Shown here piece by piece: positions 12,420 through 20,921 of a stretch of DNA of 25,369 nt. This DNA is from a virus: positions 1-25,369 of the IMG/VR virus record IMGVR_UViG_3300042516_002956; one strand, given 5' to 3'. A program made the position numbers and the translations under genes. Positions within the stretch are counted from its first letter, which is position 1, and each line of letters starts with the position of its first letter. The notes beneath the pieces were generated by a model. The model saw only the letters and a program-made list of their open reading frames with translations, searched no databases and was not told where the DNA came from.

Positions 12420-13502
12420 TTACCAATCCCACTTGTCATCTAATGTTAGTTGCCCATCATCGTCGTCATTGTACGGGTTGTCAACGTCTTGTTTCGGAAC
12501 GTTAGTTACGAGCAGTCTATTTAGCCTGCCTGTGCCATATTCGATTTCAAAATCTATGTCGTCAAGCAACTGCGATGATGGACGTTTACATTTCACCAAG
12601 TTAACTGTCAACGTATTCTGATGAATACGCAACTCGTAACGCAATGCGTCCAAACGTTCAAGCAAACGTTCCGTGTTGTTCGACCTAGGTAGGCGTTCTT
12701 CGATGTCACGAATCTGCGCTTCAATCTCAAAACGTTTACGACGAATACCAACAATGTGTGTTGCCTGCTGTTCACCGCCGTAAGCACCTGACGAAATAGT
12801 CATCTTCTTGCCGTCAGCACCTGCCGTACGTGACGACTGGTGCAACACAAGCAACGGAATGTTGTGGCGTTTACCGAACGCTTTTAATGTGTTCGCTTTG
12901 TCGGGGACAGTTTCACCGCCACCCTGAAGAAGTTCTAGATAGTCAAACACCATCAACGCTGGTTGACCTAACTCGTCACGAACCTCGCCTAATGCTTTCT
13001 CCATGTCATTAAGGTTCATCATTTGGTCGAACACCGCTAACTTGGGAAAGTATTTCTGCGCTGTGTCTTTCAACAGTTCGATGGCTCCATAATCATTGTT
13101 GGATACTTGTGTTTCTAAAATGTTTGCGTCAATCCCGTGGGTGACACAAGCCAATTTGATTAAGGTCAAAGTCCTAGGTTCATCAGGGCAGAAATAAATA
13201 ATTGTTTTGTCAGCGTTAGCCAACAAAATCTGTAACAAAAACAACGTTTTACCACTATGGCTGTAGCCGTTGATTAAACACATCTCACTAGGTGCAATCC
13301 CACGCATTTGTTCATCCAAGTCATTAAAACCTAGGTAGACACGGTCTTCGGGATGTTGCGCCCAATGGACATAATCATCGGCTGCTATAGCCAAAGGGCT
13401 ATAAAACGAACGTTGCTTAATCACGCTGGACAAAACATCGGGCGGGGAGATTTCTCCCCGCCCTAATGCTTCCCAACGCTCCGCATAATCGAGAGCGTTC
13501 AT
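12420..13502 (-). CDS. RecA/DnaB-type replicative helicase ATPase
   Basis: 360 residues. Walker A is GYSHSGKT (79-86), Walker B is in LMVFDYLELLQGG (183-195), and the sensor-like LLVLHQSS follows (217-224), as in DnaB and KaiC-type ATPases. A SSGAYGGEQQATHIVGIRRK stretch comes next, and a charged coiled coil interrupts the C-terminal part (~265-305). The N-terminal DnaB collar domain is missing, as in many short phage helicases. With the primase it forms the replication core. Its ribosome site lies in a small hairpin (13509-13521), and a strong GC-rich inverted repeat (13440-13463) falls in codons ~13-20. Confidence 0.88.
   Translation of the reverse strand: MNALDYAERWEALGRGEISPPDVLSSVIKQRSFYSPLAIAADDYVHWAQHPEDRVYLGFNDLDEQMRGIAPSEMCLINGYSHSGKTLFLLQILLANADKTIIYFCPDEPRTLTLIKLACVTHGIDANILETQVSNNDYGAIELLKDTAQKYFPKLAVFDQMMNLNDMEKALGEVRDELGQPALMVFDYLELLQGGGETVPDKANTLKAFGKRHNIPLLVLHQSSRTAGADGKKMTISSGAYGGEQQATHIVGIRRKRFEIEAQIRDIEERLPRSNNTERLLERLDALRYELRIHQNTLTVNLVKCKRPSSQLLDDIDFEIEYGTGRLNRLLVTNVPKQDVDNPYNDDDDGQLTLDDKWDW
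13440..13463 (-). repeat. GC-rich perfect inverted repeat within the helicase gene
   Basis: GGGCGGGGAG pairs with CTCCCCGCCC across a 4-base loop (ATTT). It shares GGGCGGG/CCCGCCC and a TTTC in the loop region with the intergenic hairpin at 17610-17637. It lies near the beginning of the helicase message, so it could slow translation or act as an attenuator; there is no proper T run after it. Confidence 0.85.
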
Positions 13503-13508
13503 ATGTTT

Positions 13509-13521
13509 TACCTTTCAGGTA
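13509..13521 (-). promoter_or_regulatory. Ribosome-site hairpin of the helicase gene
   Basis: In the leftward RNA, TACCT pairs with AGGTA around GAA, with the ribosome site (AAAGG) in the loop and 3' arm, 6 bases before ATG 13502. One of seven such hairpins in the leftward genes. Confidence 0.6.
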
Positions 13522-13953
13522 CTAATTGCGTGGTGCCCAAAAAGCGTCTTCGCTGGTTGTTGATTTAAACCAAGGACGCTTCGGATTAACCGAAAGACCA
13601 TCACGGTTGTCCCACACTTCTGTGACACCCTTAGCCTGACACATGGCTGGTAGCCACTCAGGAATCGGTCCGTGTTGCTTTCCCTTGATTCGGATGTTGA
13701 AGCCTGCGCCTGACTGGCTTGCGTTTGGGAACGCTTGCTTCACCATCTCAACCTCAGTCGCTGTGCTGGTGTTGGTAGTTGTTGAGGTGTTGACTTCGTC
13801 GAAGCCGTGAACACCAAGAATCAGTTCACGACAAGAATCGAAAGCCTGTGAAAAGGCTACGATGTTGGCGTTAACATCATCTGTTTTTGGTGTCAATTCG
13901 GCAGCAATTTTTGCTGCCACTTGAATGACAATGGATTGGTCTTTACTGACCAT
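13522..13953 (-). CDS. 143-aa replication-operon protein, possible ssDNA-binding protein
   Basis: 143 residues, first gene after the promoter at 13982-14012. The N-terminus is helical (VIQVAAKIAAELT), followed by a Thr/Ser-rich linker (STTTNTSTATE). The C-terminal 60 residues have a conserved look: FNIRIKGKQHGPIPEWL, then GVTEVWDNRDG and NPKRPWFK. The aromatic and basic C-terminal region and the place between a nuclease and a helicase would suit a DNA-binding accessory such as an SSB substitute, but no OB-fold is recognisable by eye, and the last residues are not the usual acidic SSB tail. Function remains unknown. Confidence 0.7.
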   Translation of the reverse strand: MVSKDQSIVIQVAAKIAAELTPKTDDVNANIVAFSQAFDSCRELILGVHGFDEVNTSTTTNTSTATEVEMVKQAFPNASQSGAGFNIRIKGKQHGPIPEWLPAMCQAKGVTEVWDNRDGLSVNPKRPWFKSTTSEDAFWAPRN

Positions 13954-13955
13954 TT

Positions 13956-13970
13956 CAACCTCCTTGGTTG
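13956..13970 (-). promoter_or_regulatory. Ribosome-site hairpin of the 143-aa gene
   Basis: In the leftward RNA, CAACC pairs with GGTTG around AAGGA. The Shine-Dalgarno sequence AAGGAGG sits in the loop and 3' arm, five bases from ATG 13953. It lies within about 20 bases of the predicted transcript start, so it also forms the mRNA 5' end. Confidence 0.7.
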
Positions 13971-13981
13971 TTGACGTTTAA

Positions 13982-14012
13982 AGTATACCACACAAAGTTC
14001 ACACTTTGTCAA
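13982..14012 (-). promoter_or_regulatory. Leftward promoter with an inverted-repeat operator in its spacer
   Basis: The -35 is TTGACA (14012-14007) and the -10 is TATACT (13987-13982), with a long 19-base spacer. A perfect 7-4-7 inverted repeat, ACAAAGTTCACACTTTGT (13992-14009), covers the spacer and part of the -35. The layout suggests a promoter for the replication operon (13953 leftward) controlled by a dimeric DNA-binding protein. Start of transcription is expected near 13975. The long spacer may mean that an activator or a DNA-twisting regulator is needed. Confidence 0.65.
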
Positions 14013-14868
14013 CGGTATCTTTTTCTGTTATTTTAATTTCCACTTCTTGTGGAAACAAATCAGGCGAGGACAAGTAAGCACCTTTGCAGATTGACCAAAA
14101 GGAACACCAACGTTCCGAACATAAATTGTTCGTGTCGTTAATCATCCACTTGTTGTCCATGCCAACTAATAGCGCAGTTGTAACCGCAGGTTCAACTGCC
14201 GACCTTAGCCAGTTCATGTGATTCTTATTTCTGTGAACAGGAACAATCTGACCGACAGGCTTTGCCTGACGTATCATCACACCATAATTAAATTCGACAG
14301 GGAAATCAGTCATCCCCATGTGAACAACAGCACCAGCGTACACAGTTGACTGGATACTGGTTGACTGTTTTTCACGTTGATTATATTTACGGTTCGCTGT
14401 TTTCCAGTCCCATACGACACCGTTGGTGTCGACATAGTCCATAGTTCCCTCACACCAAATAGCGTGCCCCATAACAGTGAAACCCAAAGGGTATTCAAAT
14501 TTCATTTCAGTATGACCACCCAACGAAACGTTGGGAAGAATGTCTGCTTTAAATGATTCGCACATTGACAATATGAAAGTTTCATATTTGTCTGGGTCTA
14601 TGTTTGTTTCACGATACGGTTCAGTCTTCTGCAGACCAGTGAACGCAGTCATTGCTACGTCACCCATGTCCGCTAGTTCGACTTTGTTATTCAACACATC
14701 TTCGATGGCTGAATGAACCGCTGTACCCATAATCGTTGAGTCCGTAGACGAACGCATATGTTTCGATACAATCCCTAGACGGGCACGTTCAGGGCATAGA
14801 ACGACATCGTTCAACCAAGATTGTCTCACGTACGCCCTCATACCTTCTTCATGTTTTACAATTCTCAT
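13999..14868 (-). CDS. Cas4/RecB-like PD-(D/E)XK exonuclease with Fe-S cluster cysteines
   Basis: About 289 residues. Nuclease motifs in order: GTAVHSAIEDV (His motif), EGTMDYVD (Asp motif), and VVWDWKTANRKY (the D-x-K core), then a helix with TSIQSTVYAGAVV. One Cys near the N-terminus (VVLCPERARL) and three near the C-terminus (LCSERWCSFWSIC) make the four ligands of a Cas4/AddB-type 4Fe-4S cluster. Such phage enzymes resect DNA ends for recombination and replication. Start: ATG 14868 is preferred, with GGAAAA just upstream; TTG 14877 is the alternative. The gene's last bases overlap the promoter of the next operon. Confidence 0.87.
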   Translation of the reverse strand: MRIVKHEEGMRAYVRQSWLNDVVLCPERARLGIVSKHMRSSTDSTIMGTAVHSAIEDVLNNKVELADMGDVAMTAFTGLQKTEPYRETNIDPDKYETFILSMCESFKADILPNVSLGGHTEMKFEYPLGFTVMGHAIWCEGTMDYVDTNGVVWDWKTANRKYNQREKQSTSIQSTVYAGAVVHMGMTDFPVEFNYGVMIRQAKPVGQIVPVHRNKNHMNWLRSAVEPAVTTALLVGMDNKWMINDTNNLCSERWCSFWSICKGAYLSSPDLFPQEVEIKITEKDTVDKV

Positions 14869-14923
14869 ATTTTCCAATCTTTAAGATTCTAATTAGCAAG
14901 GACAATAATAGCATATGGACATG

Positions 14924-15694
14924 TCACAGACGGTCTTTAACTTTTTTGCGGTGGCGAGAGCGAAACTTACTGATAGCACTACGAGCAAACAAGAAGTTAT
15001 ATTTATTATAAACCTCATCACATATTTGCTTTGGAGTCATGTCGGTAGTCAAACAAAGTTTGTGCATATACTGCTGTGCTTCATTGTCCCCGCTATGCCA
15101 ACTAGTACGCCTAGAACCCCAATACTTGCGCAAACCCTTAACACATGCAAAAGTAATCGAATACTTAATCGCTATAGAGGGATAAGAAACATTTTCGTTT
15201 GTCATGTCTTCTTCCAGCGAATCAAGTTGTTCATACGTCCAACCCGAACGACACTTGTTTCTTGTGGCACTAGCCACAAATTCTTCAGCGGAAACGTTCA
15301 GTTTACGCAACACATACGTCAACGGATAATTAAAACGTTCCATACATTTCAACACGTTATTAGATATCAGGCTGTAACGAACAAGACCACTGACAGAATC
15401 AGGAATCTCATCAACGTCATAAAGGCTTTGATACTGAAAGTCAAACGTTTTATTTTGTGCAATCAACGCATCATTAAATGTACGCAAATCACAAAGATAA
15501 TCCACCAACGAATCCCTAGTCCAAGGAACACCATAACCCCTAATTTCACATATTTGGGAACCCATATAAACATCGTTTACAGCGTCACCAATCCACGTTC
15601 GTGAACGATTCTCGTCCAACACAACATCACATAAACAGTCAGAGTCGTGGTCAGCATGACCACACCCCAACCAATCATCACCGTATTCGTACAT
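14924..15694 (-). CDS. Helix-turn-helix DNA-binding protein, unknown family
   Basis: 256 residues from ATG 15694, which overlaps the previous stop as TGATG and has AGGAGG 7 bases upstream. The N-terminus holds a His/Cys cluster (CGHADHDSDCLC) that could bind zinc. The middle is helical. Two HTH-like units lie near the C-terminus: WTYEQLDSLEEDMTNENVSY with SIAIKYSITFACVKGL, and MTPKQICDEVYNKYNFLF with ARSAISKFRSRHRKK. It ends very basic (KKVKDRL). It is probably a DNA-binding regulator, perhaps of the operators described here. The antisense strand is also open for 229 codons, but lacks a ribosome site and operon fit. Confidence 0.7.
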   Translation of the reverse strand: MYEYGDDWLGCGHADHDSDCLCDVVLDENRSRTWIGDAVNDVYMGSQICEIRGYGVPWTRDSLVDYLCDLRTFNDALIAQNKTFDFQYQSLYDVDEIPDSVSGLVRYSLISNNVLKCMERFNYPLTYVLRKLNVSAEEFVASATRNKCRSGWTYEQLDSLEEDMTNENVSYPSIAIKYSITFACVKGLRKYWGSRRTSWHSGDNEAQQYMHKLCLTTDMTPKQICDEVYNKYNFLFARSAISKFRSRHRKKVKDRL

Positions 15695-15876
15695 CACGCA
15701 ACCTCCTGTGCTTCCACATCATCGCAGTAACCTGCTTCCATGACTAGGTTCATAATCACACCGAACAGAACCCGTTCGTCAATCATGCCATGTTGCTTTA
15801 ATGATTCAATTACTTGGTGCGCTGTTTCCATCGCCAGTAATTCTTTTTCCGTAAACGGCTCGTTTATAATCGCCAT
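15694..15876 (-). CDS. 60-aa acidic helical protein, unknown function
   Basis: 60 residues beginning MAIINEPFTEKELLAME. It is helical throughout (VIESLKQHG; LFGVIMNLVMEAGY) and ends acidic (DDVEAQEVA). AGGAGG lies 8 bases before ATG 15876; the start codon shares one base with the preceding stop (TAATG). No family is recognised. Confidence 0.7.
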   Translation of the reverse strand: MAIINEPFTEKELLAMETAHQVIESLKQHGMIDERVLFGVIMNLVMEAGYCDDVEAQEVA

Positions 15877-16049
15877 TACTTTTCCTCCTGTATTTCCATG
15901 TAGGACACCATTTTATGGTGACCAATAAGGTTGCCGAACACGTCGACAACATCCAACGCCATTTGGCGTGCTTCTTCTTCGTTGCCTGAATCAACCCGTA
16001 CTTCGTACAAGTCCCCAACGATTACCTCAAAATACCATTCCTTAGGCAT
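15876..16049 (-). CDS. 57-aa protein, unknown function
   Basis: From ATG (16049-16047) to TAA (15878-15876). It starts MPKEWYFEVIVGDLYEVRVD, an alternating strand pattern, then a helix (GNEEEARQMALDVVDVFGNL), and ends QEEK. The alpha/beta pattern resembles small single-domain proteins. Both ends are coupled by TAATG to neighbouring genes, and AGGAGG lies upstream. Function unknown. Confidence 0.68.
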   Translation of the reverse strand: MPKEWYFEVIVGDLYEVRVDSGNEEEARQMALDVVDVFGNLIGHHKMVSYMEIQEEK

Positions 16050-16258
16050 TATGCCACCTCCTGACTTTTTTGATTTTCATTCATGTTGTGAAAACGATGA
16101 AACGAACGGGCAACATCCAAGAAGTCTTTGACTTCGTCACCGTAGAAGTGCATTTCGCACCCTTTGTACCGCAAAGAAACATATTCAATGTTTCCATTCA
16201 GTATGTCAGCAAACACTGTTGTGTCTGACCCGATATGAACAATGTGTGATGTTCTCAT
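16049..16258 (-). CDS. 69-aa protein, unknown function
   Basis: 69 residues starting MRTSHIVHIGSDTTVF, with a beta-rich first half (NIEYVSLRYKGCEMHFYG) and a helical second half (VKDFLDVARSFHRFH). CCTAGGAGG lies upstream of ATG 16258; unlike several neighbours this site has only a two-base-pair stem around it. Unknown function. Confidence 0.7.
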   Translation of the reverse strand: MRTSHIVHIGSDTTVFADILNGNIEYVSLRYKGCEMHFYGDEVKDFLDVARSFHRFHNMNENQKSQEVA

Positions 16259-16267
16259 TTTAACCTC

Positions 16268-16564
16268 CTAGGAATTCTTCAAGTAAACTTGACGGAACAA
16301 AACAATGGAACAAGTAGTGATTATGTTGTAATCATCATCCAAAGGATAAGCAACAGCACTAATGTAACACAAATCATCCTCATCATAAACATGCAGGTTT
16401 ATGTCCACAAAATCGCCATTGTTTAATTCGTATGACGACCAGTAATCATCGCTATGTGAATGAAAAGAGTGAGCGTCCAACAAACCTTTAGCAAAGGCTC
16501 GTACCTCACGTAGATTGTCAACAATTTGTTGTTGACGTTCATTTTTGGAAAGTGATACTTTCAT
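16268..16564 (-). CDS. 98-aa protein, unknown function
   Basis: 98 residues. A basic helix at the start (MKVSLSKNERQQQIVDNLRE) is followed by a Ser/His/Asp-rich segment and two beta-hairpin-like stretches (NGDFVDINLHVYDEDD; LCYISAVAYPLDDDYNIITT). The ribosome site is in a hairpin (16568-16583). A perfect 8-4-8 inverted repeat (GTCAACAA, loop TTTG) lies inside the gene at 16516-16535. No family is recognised. Confidence 0.7.
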   Translation of the reverse strand: MKVSLSKNERQQQIVDNLREVRAFAKGLLDAHSFHSHSDDYWSSYELNNGDFVDINLHVYDEDDLCYISAVAYPLDDDYNIITTCSIVLFRQVYLKNS

Positions 16565-16567
16565 TAT

Positions 16568-16583
16568 AATCCCTCCTAGGATT
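16568..16583 (-). promoter_or_regulatory. Ribosome-site hairpin of the 98-aa gene
   Basis: In the leftward RNA, AATCC pairs with GGATT around TAGGAG, leaving the Shine-Dalgarno core in the loop. The stop codon TAG of the preceding zinc-ribbon gene is also inside this loop, so terminating ribosomes would open or occupy the hairpin. Confidence 0.65.
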
Positions 16584-16737
16584 TCTTTGTTTTTGTTTTT
16601 TTAATCAGTTCCATAAGAACTGGTTTCTTGTTTAAATGTGACCAACATGTTGGAGGTGCCGTCATAGTAACGAACACCTCCACCACGTTTCCACACTTCG
16701 GGCAAGAATACTTGCCTCGCCCAAAGCGAACACTCAT
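16576..16737 (-). CDS. 53-aa zinc-ribbon protein
   Basis: From ATG (16737-16735) to TAG (16578-16576). The start MSVRFGRGKYSCPKCGN holds a Cys-x2-Cys pair, followed by VVEVFVTMTAPPTCWSH, with a Cys and a His as further metal ligands, and a basic tail (MELIKKTKTKKS). This matches the layout of the short zinc-ribbon proteins common in phages of high-GC Gram-positive bacteria (CxCG...PPTC). It probably binds nucleic acid or a polymerase, but its role is unknown. The start overlaps the preceding stop as ATGA. Confidence 0.7.
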   Translation of the reverse strand: MSVRFGRGKYSCPKCGNVVEVFVTMTAPPTCWSHLNKKPVLMELIKKTKTKKS

Positions 16738-17360
16738 TGTCCCTCCATAAACTTTTGAAGTTCATCTTCAAAGTTTTCTGTTTCATCTTCCATAATAGCG
16801 TCGATGACTTGCTCACGACCCCACTTCAACGAACGTTGAATAATTTCCAACGACTCATCCGACATTTTTGAACCGTAAGCCCTGTTGTCGATTAACAACT
16901 CTAATTCGTCAGACACTGAATCCAATTCTTCATCTGAGATTATGCCCGATTCAATCGCCATCTCCATCATGAAGTTAAGAATGGCTGCTTCGTTGTAATT
17001 CTTTGCGCAGAACCCAACAAATTCTTCTTTAAAGAATTCGACCAAATCTTTAGGCAAATCATAATTGTCTCCGTCATACTCACCGCTAGGTGAGGTTCCT
17101 GAAACAATGACAACGTCGCCACGAATCTCTTGTGAGAACAACGCCGACGCAAGCCAGTTAGTTTCCAAATCCAAGATGAGTCCCTCATCATGAACATAAC
17201 CGACAACGGTAATCAAATCACCGTCAGGTGAAGTGACATCGGCACGGACACAGTCGAAACATCCACCGATTAAGTTTTGAATCGACTTGTAATCTTCAAC
17301 GATTACATCTTGTGGCTCAACGCCAATCCCTTTGGGGAATAAAAGCCCTGAGGCTAACAT
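16734..17360 (-). CDS. DUF3846-domain protein with acidic C-terminal half
   Basis: 208 residues. The first ~100 fit the DUF3846 pattern: a start with VEPQDVIVEDYKSIQNLIGG, then DEGLILDLETNWLASALF and IRGDVVIVSG. The function of this domain is not known; it often occurs in phages and mobile elements. The remainder is acidic and helical (EELDSVSDELELLIDNR; ETENFEDELQKFMEG), which may be a DNA-mimic-like or partner-binding region. The ribosome site is in a hairpin (17363-17379) and a terminator lies upstream, so it may start its own transcript. Confidence 0.75.
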   Translation of the reverse strand: MLASGLLFPKGIGVEPQDVIVEDYKSIQNLIGGCFDCVRADVTSPDGDLITVVGYVHDEGLILDLETNWLASALFSQEIRGDVVIVSGTSPSGEYDGDNYDLPKDLVEFFKEEFVGFCAKNYNEAAILNFMMEMAIESGIISDEELDSVSDELELLIDNRAYGSKMSDESLEIIQRSLKWGREQVIDAIMEDETENFEDELQKFMEGQ

Positions 17361-17362
17361 AA

Positions 17363-17379
17363 CACACCTCCTAAGTGTG
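17363..17379 (-). promoter_or_regulatory. Ribosome-site hairpin of the DUF3846 gene
   Basis: In the leftward RNA, CACAC pairs with GTGTG around TTAGGAG, so the AGGAG core is in a 7-base loop. ATG 17360 follows two bases after the stem. Confidence 0.65.
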
Positions 17380-17413
17380 AATACACCAACAACCCTATGC
17401 CGTTGGCAGAACT

Positions 17414-17447
17414 AAAAAAGACAGTAACACATCAATGTGTCACTGTC
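17414..17447 (-). terminator. Rho-independent terminator, leftward
   Basis: In the leftward RNA a hairpin (GACAGT and ACACAT pairing with ATGTGT and ACTGTC, one mismatch) at 17447-17420 is followed at once by six T residues (17419-17414). It ends the transcript of the 40-aa membrane protein gene. Confidence 0.8.
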
Positions 17448-17459
17448 AAATTCAAAAAG

Positions 17460-17582
17460 TTATTTTTTGAAATGCTGTCTAGTGTGACGTTTGTATTTGG
17501 GTCGTGACTCGTGTGGATTGTGAACCACCAAGTAGACACCAGCGACGAAAAACGCCAACAGAATAAAACCGAACATAATCAT
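17460..17582 (-). CDS. 40-aa single-span membrane protein
   Basis: ATG (17582-17580) to TAA (17462-17460). It begins MIMFGFILLAFFVAGVYLVV, one transmembrane helix, and has a basic tail (YKRHTRQHFKK). AGGAG at 17593-17589 is six bases from this ATG; two further in-frame ATGs (17588, 17576) are less well spaced. Each ATG lies in tandem GATTATG motifs. The gene lies between a hairpin upstream and a strong terminator downstream, so it may be separately expressed. The topology (N-out or N-in helix with a basic tail) is compatible with a pinholin or a membrane inhibitor, but it is far from the endolysin. Confidence 0.65.
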   Translation of the reverse strand: MIMFGFILLAFFVAGVYLVVHNPHESRPKYKRHTRQHFKK

Positions 17583-17609
17583 AATCATCTCCTAATAGGT
17601 GGACGGAAA

Positions 17610-17637
17610 GGGCGGGCACCGTTTCCAGTGCCCGCCC
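17610..17637 (-). terminator. GC-rich hairpin, probable leftward terminator
   Basis: A perfect 10-bp stem (GGGCGGGCAC with GTGCCCGCCC) and an 8-base loop. In the leftward direction it is followed only by TTTCCG, a weak T tract, so it may be a partial terminator or an mRNA 3' protector for the operon ending at 17697. Confidence 0.55.
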
Positions 17638-17696
17638 ATCTACCTAGGAGGTAAACCGACACAGTGGAGGTAACCGTATCGGTAAACCCCAGTGTA
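17638..17696. other. Short intergenic stretch with GGTAACC-type repeats
   Basis: Three similar words, GGTAAACCG, GGTAACCG and GGTAAACCC, occur within 50 bases, around a small hairpin (ACCG, loop TAT, CGGT). No gene is seen here. It may belong to the 3' structure of the 17697-18506 message. Confidence 0.4.
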
Positions 17697-18506
17697 TCAG
17701 TCCAACACCCCCAAGCCACGGATAGTTTGCATAATCCAGTCTACAGGACTGTCGACCATGTCAGCGTTACCGCCATGTTCGATACGGTTGATTATGATGT
17801 CTGCCTCCAAGGCTTCGCCTTGTGTAATCGGAACGGATGAACCGTAATTGTTCCGAACACACTTGCTGTACCCAAGGGATGACATCTCACGGACACCGAA
17901 CGTTAAGCGACGCAACATCGACGGATGAGCAATTGCATACATCAGAGAGTCAATGTCCATTGGCTCCCGAGGGTCGTGCATTTTCACCAACGTGGTGTGA
18001 GTATCGGAACCGAACTTGACAGAAGTTTCTGTCCATAATTCCACCGACAACCCCAAAGTGTTCAACACCTCCACAAGGGCAGTGACAGCAACGCCACGGC
18101 GCAACATCCAATCCGCCTTGTATCTGCTGTTAGCACCATAATCCAACACCACTTTCACGATTCTGCCGTGTCGTGCCGTAGGCACCCTGCGGAATCCGAC
18201 CATGTGGTCAGGACGACCACCAAGGAATCGACCCATGTGGACACCGCTACCGACCACCGAAAGCATTGTGCGATTCTGAACGGAAAACCGTTCACCAATC
18301 TGTTCCGAAAGCGTGGACAACATCTTGTCCAGTTGCTCACGTTCATCATGCCAACCGTCATAGGCTAGTTGGACAGCGTTGGATAGGTCGACGGTGCCAC
18401 CACAGAAGTACGAATCCCCTGTGTTGGCTTCGCCATTATGGGTGTTTTTCTTGGCGTAAGCCAACAACTCATCGAATGAGTCGAATCTGTCAATTACTGT
18501 TGACAT
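17697..18506 (-). CDS. DUF7192-like protein, probable partner of the MoxR-type ATPase
   Basis: 269 residues. The centre has the pattern VVGSGVHMGRFLGGRPDHM followed by a VVLDYGANSRYKADWMLRRG stretch and VTALVEVLNTLGLSVELW. This matches a phage protein family (DUF7192, as I recall it) often found with a MoxR-type AAA+ gene. Its alternating strand and helix order recalls von Willebrand A domains, the usual partners of MoxR ATPases, but no complete MIDAS motif is seen. The ATPase gene is directly upstream, 39 bases away. The pair probably forms a remodelling complex; the target is unknown. Confidence 0.65.
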   Translation of the reverse strand: MSTVIDRFDSFDELLAYAKKNTHNGEANTGDSYFCGGTVDLSNAVQLAYDGWHDEREQLDKMLSTLSEQIGERFSVQNRTMLSVVGSGVHMGRFLGGRPDHMVGFRRVPTARHGRIVKVVLDYGANSRYKADWMLRRGVAVTALVEVLNTLGLSVELWTETSVKFGSDTHTTLVKMHDPREPMDIDSLMYAIAHPSMLRRLTFGVREMSSLGYSKCVRNNYGSSVPITQGEALEADIIINRIEHGGNADMVDSPVDWIMQTIRGLGVLD

Positions 18507-18508
18507 TG

Positions 18509-18525
18509 TAAACCTCCTAGGTTTA
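18509..18525 (-). promoter_or_regulatory. Ribosome-site hairpin of the DUF7192-like gene
   Basis: In the leftward RNA, TAAACC pairs with GGTTTA (6 bp) around TAGGA. The Shine-Dalgarno AGGAGG spans loop and 3' arm, and ATG 18506 follows two bases later. Confidence 0.7.
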
Positions 18526-18532
18526 TGTTGTG

Positions 18533-18561
18533 ATTATAGCCGACGTTACTTAACAGTAACG
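18533..18561 (-). promoter_or_regulatory. Candidate leftward promoter with an upstream inverted repeat
   Basis: A perfect -10 (TATAAT, 18538-18533) lies in the 39-base gap. No good -35 is seen. A perfect 7-4-7 inverted repeat (CGTTACT, TAAC, AGTAACG; 18544-18561) occupies the -35 area and overlaps the stop of the ATPase gene. It has the same 7-4-7 shape as the operator at 13992-14009 but a different sequence. Confidence 0.45.
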
Positions 18562-19865
18562 CCAGCCATAACCTTGTCGTATTGGACTTTGTCCAAGCCA
18601 GCACCAAAGGTACAGTCAATCGCCTCCTGCATGGTGAAACCGCCAGCAAGCAACATCGCACCATGTTTCATGGAACGTGGTGTCACCATGACTCGCAAAC
18701 CGTTATCGTCGCAATTCTTACGAGCCTGACGGACAGCCATCTTCCACAACGTTAGTTGTGGCTCAGGGATTATCCCGTCGACCATAGCGTCTTCGACGTT
18801 CTCATCAACACCGACCAAGATTCTAACGAATCGGTCAAGTGTCGCACCGTCAATGGCAGACCTGCCGACATACTGTGCCGTAGCACCGTTGCCCCAAGTA
18901 TTGCCAGTGGCAACAACACGGAAGTCCTTATGCTTACGCACCATCCCATCAGGGAAAGCCATGACACCATTGGCAAGGGCACTGTTCAGTGTCACCAACA
19001 CATCGGCACTGGCATTGTCCATCTCATCCAAGAGATACAGTCCGCCATTTTCAAACGATTCACGGAACGCTGTGCTGTGAATCATGCCATGACCATCACG
19101 GTAGCCGACATAATCAAACTTAGCGTCAGTTGTTCCACAACTGTTGCCACGGAACTCCAAGCCCAATTGCTCCGCAATCTGCATAGGAATCGTTGACTTT
19201 CCTGTCCCTGCCGAACCGACAAGGAACACATGCAAGCCTTGAGCAATTGCGGTAGCAATTTTGCCATACATTTTGTGAACAACGCCTTGTGTCGGCTTTG
19301 ACGCAACACCGTTCACCACCAATTGTATTGGTGTTTGATGTTGCAACTGTTGCTTCACTGATTCAATTGTCTGTGACAATTCTGTCAAGCGTTGCACAAC
19401 CTCATCGGAAATACCCGACGAAGTCGGCTCATAATTGACCAACGCCTCATCGACGATTCTCCGAATCGTTGCGGATAAAACATCATCCAGCGATGAATTA
19501 GCGGGGACAGGCTTGGTAGTCTTTGACTGTGGCATTGTAGGTTCCTCCTGAACCGTTGGGGGAACCGTTGGGGGAACCGTTGGGGGAACCGTTGGCGAAG
19601 CCGTAGGTTCCGACGATGTAGCAACACCTAAAGTGTTGCCACTCTTTTGAACGTTGTAGAACAACGAATCCAATTCGTGAGTAGTGAAATGCATTGGTGG
19701 CTTGCCACGGAACTGAACACCAAGAAATTTCAGTGTTGCAATTCTTGTGACTTTGTCACAATTCTGCCACAACGTCGTCCGTTGATAGTTTGAACCGTTG
19801 GCAGTGTAGTGAACCAAACCGTCAGGGTCTACCTTGTAGACCGTAGGTGCTTTTTTCGCTGGCAT
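18546..19865 (-). CDS. MoxR-type AAA+ ATPase with a repeat-containing N-terminal linker
   Basis: 439 residues. The AAA+ core is C-terminal: Walker A GSAGTGKST (217-225), Walker B LYLLDE (276-281), sensor 1 ATGN (319-322), and an arginine-finger-like LDRF (343-346). Residues 1-75 form a small domain starting with a strand-rich part (VYKVDPDGLVHYTANGSNYQ). A Thr-Val-Pro-Pro tandem repeat (92-104) and a helical linker (125-175) follow. MoxR/CbbQ-type ATPases remodel protein complexes, usually with a vWA-type partner; the next gene probably encodes the partner. The ribosome site is in a small hairpin (19871-19882), and a tRNA-like fold and hairpins precede it. Confidence 0.85.
   Translation of the reverse strand: MPAKKAPTVYKVDPDGLVHYTANGSNYQRTTLWQNCDKVTRIATLKFLGVQFRGKPPMHFTTHELDSLFYNVQKSGNTLGVATSSEPTASPTVPPTVPPTVPPTVQEEPTMPQSKTTKPVPANSSLDDVLSATIRRIVDEALVNYEPTSSGISDEVVQRLTELSQTIESVKQQLQHQTPIQLVVNGVASKPTQGVVHKMYGKIATAIAQGLHVFLVGSAGTGKSTIPMQIAEQLGLEFRGNSCGTTDAKFDYVGYRDGHGMIHSTAFRESFENGGLYLLDEMDNASADVLVTLNSALANGVMAFPDGMVRKHKDFRVVATGNTWGNGATAQYVGRSAIDGATLDRFVRILVGVDENVEDAMVDGIIPEPQLTLWKMAVRQARKNCDDNGLRVMVTPRSMKHGAMLLAGGFTMQEAIDCTFGAGLDKVQYDKVMAGVTVK
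19551..19598 (-). repeat. 12-bp tandem repeat in the ATPase linker
   Basis: Three identical units of AACCGTTGGGGG (+ strand) at 19551-19586 are followed by a fourth with changes. They encode the TVPP repeats. Together with 1252-1299 this is the second 12-bp, four-residue expansion in the window. Confidence 0.9.
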
Positions 19866-19870
19866 GATGT

Positions 19871-19882
19871 TAACCTCCGTTA
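19871..19882 (-). promoter_or_regulatory. Ribosome-site hairpin of the AAA+ ATPase gene
   Basis: In the leftward RNA, TAAC pairs with GTTA around GGAG, so the Shine-Dalgarno core forms the whole 4-base loop. It is the weakest of the seven hairpins. ATG 19865 follows five bases later. Confidence 0.5.
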
Positions 19883-19889
19883 TTATGCC

Positions 19890-19914
19890 GACATAATCCC
19901 CTTTGGATTATGTC
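19890..19914 (-). repeat. Perfect 10-bp hairpin between tRNA-like fold 1 and the ATPase gene
   Basis: GACATAATCC pairs with GGATTATGTC around a 5-base loop; each arm contains a GATTATG/CATAATC heptamer. No T run follows, so it is not a standard terminator. A second small hairpin (ATG-CCC with GGG-CAT) lies at 19916-19930. Confidence 0.75.
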
Positions 19915-19934
19915 AATGCCCCGTGGGACATCGT

Positions 19935-19991
19935 GGATGAGACAGGAATCGAACCCGTCCACACTGCCTAGGCAGTGTGCCATTTTCACCC
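19935..19991 (-). ncRNA. tRNA-like fold 1 (acceptor stem + T arm, no D/anticodon arms)
   Basis: Read leftward: acceptor 5' strand GGGTGAA (19991-19985); linker AATGG; hairpin CACACTGC-CTAG-GCAGTGTG; one G; T arm ACGGG-TTCGATT-CCTGT with a fully canonical T loop; acceptor 3' strand CTCATCC (19941-19935). Six of seven acceptor pairs form (one G-U). The next base, A, fits a discriminator; CCA is not encoded. At 57 bases it is too short for a tRNA and has no anticodon loop. It lies between the 88-aa gene and the ATPase gene. It may be cut by RNase P or RNase Z, or mimic a tRNA; it could also be a degraded tRNA. Confidence 0.6.
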
Positions 19992-20002
19992 TGACTACTT
20001 TA

Positions 20003-20269
20003 TTAGTAGTTGTAGTCGTCGTTTTCGTACTCCATGAAGTCCGCCTCCAAAACCGTATCGGTTTTCTTTGACTTCCACACGGACAGAACACCAACATAGC
20101 CTGATGAATGACCAAGATGGTATTCAGTGTATACACACTGTTCGACCAAATTCCCCATGTCATCGAACATGGGTTCGTTGTCGTTAACGACAACTTCGAT
20201 TATGTCACCAGTGCTATCCTCCCATTCCTTAAGGAATGATACAACGTCTTCGACAGGTTGTGTTTTCAT
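20003..20269 (-). CDS. 88-aa acidic protein, unknown function
   Basis: 88 residues, strongly acidic (VVVNDNEPMFDDMGN; EADFMEYENDDYNY at the end), with no membrane segment. Small very acidic early phage proteins often act as DNA mimics or enzyme inhibitors; that is only a possibility. The gene is framed by two tRNA-like folds and has its ribosome site in a hairpin (20274-20289). Its coding region contains an unusual series of perfect inverted repeats (20049-20065, 20135-20150, 20154-20173, 20177-20194, 20223-20238), so the sequence seems selected at RNA or DNA level as well. Confidence 0.7.
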   Translation of the reverse strand: MKTQPVEDVVSFLKEWEDSTGDIIEVVVNDNEPMFDDMGNLVEQCVYTEYHLGHSSGYVGVLSVWKSKKTDTVLEADFMEYENDDYNY

Positions 20270-20273
20270 TTTG

Positions 20274-20289
20274 CTTACCTCCTAGTAAG
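20274..20289 (-). promoter_or_regulatory. Ribosome-site hairpin of the 88-aa gene
   Basis: In the leftward RNA, CTTAC pairs with GTAAG around TAGGAG. The AGGAG core is in the loop, and ATG 20269 lies four bases after the stem. Confidence 0.7.
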
Positions 20290-20316
20290 TGTGAATTAAC
20301 ATCCGTAGGATGTAGC

Positions 20317-20371
20317 GGACAGTGTGAGAATCGCACTCACCATACCAACACCGCACTATTGCGGACTGTCC
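20317..20371 (-). ncRNA. tRNA-like fold 2 (perfect acceptor stem + T arm, no D/anticodon arms)
   Basis: Read leftward: acceptor GGACAGT (20371-20365); hairpin CCGCA-ATAG-TGCGG; 10-base linker TGTTGGTATG; T arm GTGAG-TGCGATT-CTCAC; acceptor 3' strand ACTGTCC (20323-20317). The acceptor stem has seven of seven Watson-Crick pairs and the T stem five of five; the T loop keeps C56, a purine at 57 and A58. The next base is G. A small hairpin (ACATCC, GTA, GGATGT; 20300-20314) follows, then the ribosome-site hairpin of the 88-aa gene. It is only 55 bases, so it is not a normal tRNA. A TGTCCCCG word overlaps its 5' end. Confidence 0.65.
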
Positions 20372-20451
20372 CCGACTAGCGTTTAACCACGTGTCACAGT
20401 GGGTTCCTCCCATGATAACGACATAGGCACCGACATCCTAACAGAATGTAC

Positions 20452-20466
20452 GTCTTGACTCTGGGC
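20452..20466 (+). repeat. GTCTTGACTCT direct repeat, copy 1
   Basis: GTCTTGACTCTGGGC matches 20640-20654 at 14 of 15 positions. It contains a TTGACT -35-like word on the + strand; a CATAAT lies 20 bases downstream, a long spacing. Confidence 0.6.
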
Positions 20467-20639
20467 ACCGATGGTGCCGACATAATCGGAAATGGAATCT
20501 AGAGTTGACCACGAACGTAGTTCGTGCCATAATCCCCCAACATCAACGTCATGAGCAAGATTATGCACTATTTCCGACCTACAGACACCGAATCATACGG
20601 GATTCAAGCAAGACAAAGCACGAGCGAATCTATGACTAT

Positions 20640-20672
20640 GTCTTGACTCTAGGCGTGAAATTTCACTAGCCT
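20640..20672 (+). promoter_or_regulatory. GTCTTGACTCT direct repeat, copy 2; weak + strand promoter candidate
   Basis: TTGACT (20643-20648), an 18-base spacer and TAGCCT (20667-20672) make a plausible + strand promoter, but no + strand gene follows for 2 kb and the spacer is a hairpin (20649-20674). It may drive an antisense RNA or be a chance match. Confidence 0.3.
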
Positions 20673-20921
20673 AGGTGTCTGTTTTATGCCCCTCCACGAC
20701 TTGTCATCGCTTCGCTGGAATAAGGTACGTCACCGCACCGAACTTAGTCACCACCACAGTGACCACACATTCCCTAGTAGACTCTCACCATGAGAGCAGT
20801 CCACTAGGTGAACCCTATCTGCTATGTGGCACCGTCATTACTGAACAATGCGGATAGGTTCGCTTCGAATCGACCTGCCTAATGACACTAGGTGGTATCG
20901 AACCGAATCTCGATGCCAATC

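Follow-up and report, generated by a model that had tools for sequence, protein, structure and literature searches.

Why do several leftward genes of one phage carry complementary bases on either side of the Shine-Dalgarno (SD) sequence, and do these flanks act as a structure or merely reflect chance? The question is raised by IMGVR_UViG_3300042516_002956, a viral record of 25,369 bases that was analysed over its whole length (hereafter the window). Its leftward genes at approximately 11.5–20.3 kb include those for an AEP primase, a DnaB-like helicase, a PD-(D/E)XK exonuclease and an AAA ATPase, as well as for proteins with DUF7192 and DUF3846. A preliminary description of this DNA listed seven sites at which a small hairpin would present the SD in its loop, and the complementary flanks of all seven are indeed present on the minus strand (Table 1). 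A set of 79 related viral contigs (L numbers below), gathered by a helicase search, served for comparison.

Covariation among orthologues

Comparison of orthologous sequences showed that the pairing of these predicted hairpins is under selection at specific early genes only, with the sequence of the stem left free. In the flank-swap test, start regions were cut just 5' of GGAG and the 5' flanks were exchanged among orthologues, thereby keeping both the SD and the base composition. The families of the window genes starting at 18506 (DUF7192), 19865 (ATPase), 17360 (DUF3846) and 13953 (143 aa) gave z-scores of 9.1, 8.3, 6.7 and 5.9, respectively; a fifth family of approximately 106 aa, for which no gene was called in the window, scored 6.3, and a sixth, fam1946, scored 3.9. 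No signal was obtained at the helicase (z 0.6), at the exonuclease (z 0.2), whose start is equally intergenic, or in most other families. An outer-pair test avoids choosing the best stem, as the register is set by the loop and two inner pairs and only the next four positions are scored. Here, 3.10 of the four positions were paired as against 1.76 with exchanged flanks (z 13.2), a value reached in none of 2000 exchanges; the four window families, in the order given above, scored 7.5, 6.3, 5.7 and 4.8. By these sequence tests, family-level support exists for the window sites 13956, 17363, 18509 and 19871.

The compensatory changes between relatives for which the preliminary description had called were found, and they occur on both arms between phages whose helicases are 98–99% identical. 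Within the ATPase family, UAAUUAC-GGAG-GUAAUUA in L013 corresponds to UAUUUAC-GGAG-GUAAAUA in L015, and AUACGAC/GUUGUAU in L020 to AUAUAAC/GUUAUAU in L021. Both arms likewise differ between L043 (CACAA/UUGUG) and L049 (CAUGA/UCAUG), and a clean compensation separates L026 from L031. The compensation listing counts register shifts and miscalled starts as broken pairs, and its totals are hence not a fair rate. Among orthologues of the 143-aa gene the arms read CAACC/GGUUG, CACC/GGUG, CAAGC/GCUUG and UCAAG/CUUGA; the DUF7192 gene family displays many distinct arms, and the DUF3846 gene orthologues in L035 and L069 have stems of 9–10 pairs. That the letters of the stem vary between phages yet stay complementary shows selection on the hairpin itself.

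Chance level and single sites

Folded singly, the seven sites have energies of −2.5 to −6.2 kcal/mol with z-scores of −0.2 to −1.9, and shuffled sequences fold equally well in 9–76 of 200 cases, so that no single site is convincing. The chance of 1 in 1000 per gene proposed earlier was too strict, a stem of at least five pairs around the SD being expected at approximately 4–7% of starts when the register is free and the loop may have 4–8 nt. The window alone has 12 leftward SD starts without overlap, and a stem score of at least 5 was observed at 5 of them versus 7% for exchanged flanks. In the same excess test, the named phages MW202803, Octobien14, TM4, Adephagia, T4, P-SSP7 and LeBron were mostly near chance, and HTVC010P gave a z of 2.4 (3 of 19 starts).

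Hairpin anatomy

Anatomy was assessed in 211 distinct orthologous starts from seven families, with a stem score of at least 5 defining a hairpin. Such a hairpin was present at 99 starts, its stem comprising 5–10 pairs (mean predicted energy −4.9 kcal/mol) and its loop mostly 5–6 nt. The closing pair was C-G in 89 of the 99, among which 64 different 5' arms were counted. GGAG lies mostly within the loop, the paired SD letters being its last one or two G only; the commonest loops were UGGAG (26), UGGGAG (11) and UAGGA (10), UAGGAG also being usual, and a U directly precedes GGAG in 40 of the 99 hairpins versus 45 of 336 other starts. The 3' arm following GGAG is often GGUU or GGUG, and G-U pairs occur in the stems. 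The end of the stem is mostly 0–4 nt from the AUG, and the 3' arm uses the SD-AUG spacer. A per-position pairing matrix anchored on GGAG (464 starts) displayed weak peaks only, because loop length varies.

Distribution over strands and clades

Strand counts were made on autonomous SD starts in near-complete contigs, 20 of which, the window included, were hairpin-positive. On the early strand of these 20 records a hairpin was found at 90 of 217 starts (41%), compared with 12 of 199 (6%) on the late strand of the 19 relatives, the window having no qualifying late-strand start. The latter value is the chance level and bears out the earlier statement that rightward genes do not show the feature. 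The trait occurs widely over the helicase tree; as a set it is lacking in a single clade, of 25 contigs (the negative clade), the sister clade of which has it. Only 8 of 86 early-strand starts in the negative clade carried a hairpin, and in seven selected families the counts were 96 of 163 starts in the positive group versus 3 of 48 in the negative clade. Starts that overlap the preceding gene showed little or no hairpin signal, perhaps owing to constraint from the coding sequence or to translational coupling. The selection claimed in the preliminary description is strongly supported because compensatory changes are joined by three internal controls, namely the late strand, the overlapping starts and the clade without the trait; sites 13509 and 16568 stand outside this comparative support.

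Within the negative clade, the ATPase leaders of L038, L053, L057, L059, L060, L066, L075 and L077 often have, instead, a hairpin immediately upstream of the SD, with stems such as GCCC-AUUA-GGGC, GCCCC-ACU-GGGGC and GUCCC-UGU-GGGGAC. In several of these leaders it is preceded by a stem-loop with GGCAAUUCCGCC or a similar sequence. As a general substitute in this clade, a hairpin 5' of the SD was rejected, being at chance level except at the ATPase gene.

Sites and neighbouring features in the window

Table 1. Positions of the putative SD hairpins in the window and of the RNA-like motifs in the window and its relatives; energies are in kcal/mol.
Feature	Position	Strand	Context	Energy	z
SD hairpin CUUAC-UAGGAG-GUAAG	20270..20286	-	before 88-aa gene (20003-20269)	−4.6	−1.7
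SD hairpin UAAC-GGAG-GUUA	19869..19880	-	before AAA ATPase gene (18546-19865); weak alone	−2.5	−0.2
SD hairpin UAAACC-UAGGA-GGUUUA	18509..18525	-	before DUF7192 gene (17697-18506)	−5.5	
SD hairpin CACAC-UUAGGAG-GUGUG	17364..17380	-	before DUF3846 gene (16734-17360)	−6.2	
SD hairpin AAUCC-UAGGAG-GGAUU	16569..16584	-	before 98-aa gene (16268-16564)	−5.2	−1.9
SD hairpin CAACC-AAGGA-GGUUG	13957..13971	-	before 143-aa gene (13522-13953)	−5.4	
UACCU-GAA-AGGUA	13509..13521	-	before DnaB-like helicase gene (12420-13502)	−3.3	−0.9
CCTAGGAGG	16264..16272	-	SD of 69-aa gene (16049-16258); CC/GG stem of two pairs only		
tRNA-like pieces (acceptor-like stem and T-arm)	19931-19991, ~20310-20375, ~20420-20700	-	leaders of ATPase and 88-aa genes		
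Hammerhead-like motifs	L017-L022, L026, L027, L029-L031, L035, L048, L050-L052, L059, L061, L063, L067	early			
Hammerhead-like motifs, further contigs	L069, L070, L073, L081-L084, L087-L089, L091	early			

The hairpin at 20274 is kept in L001, its single near relative, with two extra pairs (UACUUAC/GUAAGUA); as this is the only distinct orthologue, what is seen at this site is conservation rather than covariation. The hairpin at 16568 has no comparative support, the single orthologue of its gene, again in L001, lacking it. At 13509 the pairing is kept in L001 only and the helicase family shows no excess in the flank-swap test (z 0.6, as above), so that this site probably lies outside the hairpin set. 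The 69-aa gene, which has the short stem listed in Table 1, has an orthologue in L001 that carries AAAUCC-UAGGA-GGGUUU. On the minus strand, the CCTAGGAGG sequence occurs at 16264-16272 and at 16572-16580, in both cases combining the TAG stop of the preceding gene with the SD of the next. On the plus strand, opposite the early genes, TACC-TAGGA-GGTA with a strong SD is found at 17639-17654 before a 58-aa open reading frame that begins with GTG (17664-17840); this palindrome may belong to a gene, be a terminator or have arisen by chance.

Hammerhead-like and tRNA-like motifs upstream

Many relatives carry, on the early strand, 1–4 motifs per contig in which the core of a type II hammerhead ribozyme is complete and its strands follow in the proper order, GGAC-GAAA-stem-GUC-stem-CUGAUGA-GUCC or close variants; most end 20–40 nt 5' of a start codon. 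Against the Rfam type II model, whose gathering score of 37 none passes, the best of them (L035) reached 26.1 bits, and we regard these sequences as strong candidates and not as certified members. Other leaders carry tRNA-like T-arms. The tRNA-like pieces of the window are not canonical tRNAs, ARAGORN having reported none, and the piece at 19931-19991 on the minus strand is a sub-threshold match to the Rfam transfer-messenger RNA (tmRNA) model (E 0.003); in an Rfam scan of the window no family reached its gathering score. The sequence AGAGTCAAGAC is present twice upstream. A hammerhead core or T-arm was found within approximately 150 nt upstream of 41 of 130 hairpin starts versus 17 of 178 others (odds ratio 4.4), the rows of this test being related to one another. 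Since three hairpin families, those of the window genes starting at 18506 and 13953 and fam1946, have no such element in that interval, the link is one of association. Upstream promoter −10 elements showed no clear difference between hairpin starts and others.

Phage group and host

The phages form a large, uncultured group of tailed phages in which the hairpins sit at several early genes. An annotated genome homologous to the window is that of a 42-kb podovirus whose source is a spring. Relatives of the window helicase were sought in prokaryote genomes as a guide to the host and none was found, and no WhiB was present in 17 related phage contigs. Distant homologues of the DUF7192 protein occur mostly in mycobacteriophages, which only hints at an actinobacterial host.

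Comparison with known systems

The closest parallel is the start-associated sequence (SAS) of cluster K mycobacteriophages, GGGATAGGAGCCC (PMC3203893), together with the motif GGGAAAGGACCCC of cluster EF Microbacterium phages (PMC7302621); K8 is one K subcluster without it (PMC12699233). Both SAS and the hairpins described here place an SD core between inverted flanks (GGG/CCC in SAS) a few nt before the start codon, here mostly 0–4 nt from stem end to AUG. Both also mark a subset of non-structural genes, as the early- and late-strand counts indicate for the hairpins, none of which stands at the helicase or exonuclease starts; the function of SAS was not established by its describers. The two differ in that SAS is 13 bp of set sequence, offers three possible outer pairs and was not read as a hairpin by its authors, whereas the stems described here have 5–10 pairs, follow no set sequence and clearly covary. 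The window contains no match to GGGATAGGAGCCC with up to two mismatches, and its three matches with three mismatches are at chance; exact copies are absent from every related viral contig, compared with 6 and 12 in the TM4 and Adephagia stretches examined. About half of SAS copies are preceded by the 17-bp inverted repeat of the extended SAS (ESAS), whereas upstream of the hairpins hammerhead and T-arm motifs were seen, no search for ESAS having been made. As SAS membership is defined by sequence, the window hairpins are not members, though both may function in a similar way.

RNA thermometers and other SD-sequestering hairpins also fold at the SD and must open for initiation, as the present hairpins would; in the closed state of those elements the SD core is paired, whereas GGAG here is mostly in the loop. 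CsrA/RsmA sites resemble the present hairpins in that many genes have a short hairpin at the ribosome site with GGA in its loop, yet the loops here are mostly UGGAG, UAGGAG or UGGGAG rather than an A-N-GGA-N hexaloop with upstream ACA, and the stems are often longer than those of CsrA hairpins from systematic evolution of ligands by exponential enrichment (SELEX), typically of at most four pairs. T4 RegB likewise acts on GGAG at the SDs of early phage genes. RegB sites require A-rich sequence on the 3' side, and secondary structure inhibits them (PMC3014915); in these phages GGAG is not followed by RAYARAA in an unstructured context, being looped and followed by the 3' arm.

What the hairpins may do

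We infer that the hairpins act in the mRNA, because they hold a fixed place on one strand, are centred on the SD, contain G-U pairs and share no stem sequence. As inverted repeats at several gene starts they might be taken for operators in DNA, recognized by a DNA-binding protein or a recombinase, but the same orientation, placement before the AUG and G-U pairs, together with the 64 arms among 99 hairpins, make this hardly credible. That runs of G in the SD and A/C-rich upstream regions give complementary flanks as a by-product would agree with the unremarkable single sites and with the 4–7% expected per start; against this, exchanged flanks lose their pairing though composition and SD are kept, starts on the late strand and starts that overlap another gene do not rise clearly above chance, and relatives differ by two-sided compensations. 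We consider a by-product very improbable; it is refuted for the set of families and may account for sites 13509 and 16568. That the hairpin genes share a function has indirect support, because the trait is confined to particular genes and one clade lacks the whole set. The same two features would suit operators for a common trans-acting factor, in which a phage or host RNA-binding protein recognizes GGA(G) in the loop whatever the stem and represses or switches on a set of early genes in the manner of CsrA. A conserved loop and closing C-G on a free stem, the enrichment of U before GGAG and the known CsrA sites with GGA in hairpin loops over SDs (PMC7652899) argue for such operators. No CsrA was found in 17 related contigs, the CsrA-type hexaloop is not the common loop, and no gene tracks the trait perfectly, the best families being present in 10 or 11 of the 20 positive contigs and in 0 or 1 of the 11 negative ones; DUF3310, proposed for SAS genes (PMC11373665), gave no match, but neither did its positive control. 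We regard operators as a real possibility, though probably not the right one. Hairpins that lie close to the new 5' ends, over GGAG, and slow the decay of mRNAs cut from long early transcripts at hammerheads or tRNA-like elements would fit the association with these upstream motifs, including the sub-gathering type II form, and GGAG is known to be shielded from RegB by secondary structure (PMC3014915). Such 5' protectors or nuclease shields would need neither to enclose the SD nor to use the SD-AUG spacer, three hairpin families lack an upstream element, the rows of the association test are related, and no promoter signal is particular to hairpin genes; this role seems to us quite unlikely.

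Our favoured interpretation, to which we give roughly even credence, is that selected RNA hairpins gate translation initiation at a set of autonomously starting early phage genes. GGAG would be shown in a loop usually 4–7 nt long while the stem joins the bases immediately before the SD to the SD-AUG spacer, so that the loop could receive a 30S subunit, which would have to open the stem to place the AUG. The stem would set initiation or permit its regulation, and it would keep the ribosome site from pairing with strongly folded upstream leaders. Since the stem uses the spacer and a docked ribosome would have to open it, an initiation gate is the most economical reading. Some points weigh against it: the stem energies span −1 to −11 kcal/mol, which is wide for a tuned gate; gene starts were assigned by a simple program in which an SD raises the score; and the orthologue shuffles ignore the tree, a concern that the compensations between close relatives answer only in part. 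Hammerheads have been proposed to split phage transcripts into gene-sized mRNAs (PMC3088659). A more speculative scheme, which we think rather unlikely, is an undescribed post-transcriptional regulon of a large group of environmental phages, in which hammerheads or tRNA-like elements cut long early transcripts to single-gene mRNAs; on each of these a single factor of phage or host would recognize an SD-loop hairpin by its structure only, and this logic would also explain SAS in cultured actinobacteriophages.

None of the papers found in the open-access literature describes SD-loop hairpins that covary across a group of phage genes, and their novelty is provisional. The comparisons prove that, in some phages, hairpins which display the SD in the loop are under selection at an entire group of early genes. 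Because the stems are interchangeable, natural relatives supply ready compensatory pairs for reporter fusions. The finding also offers a testable reading of the unexplained SAS of actinobacteriophages, as a hairpin rather than an extended SD.

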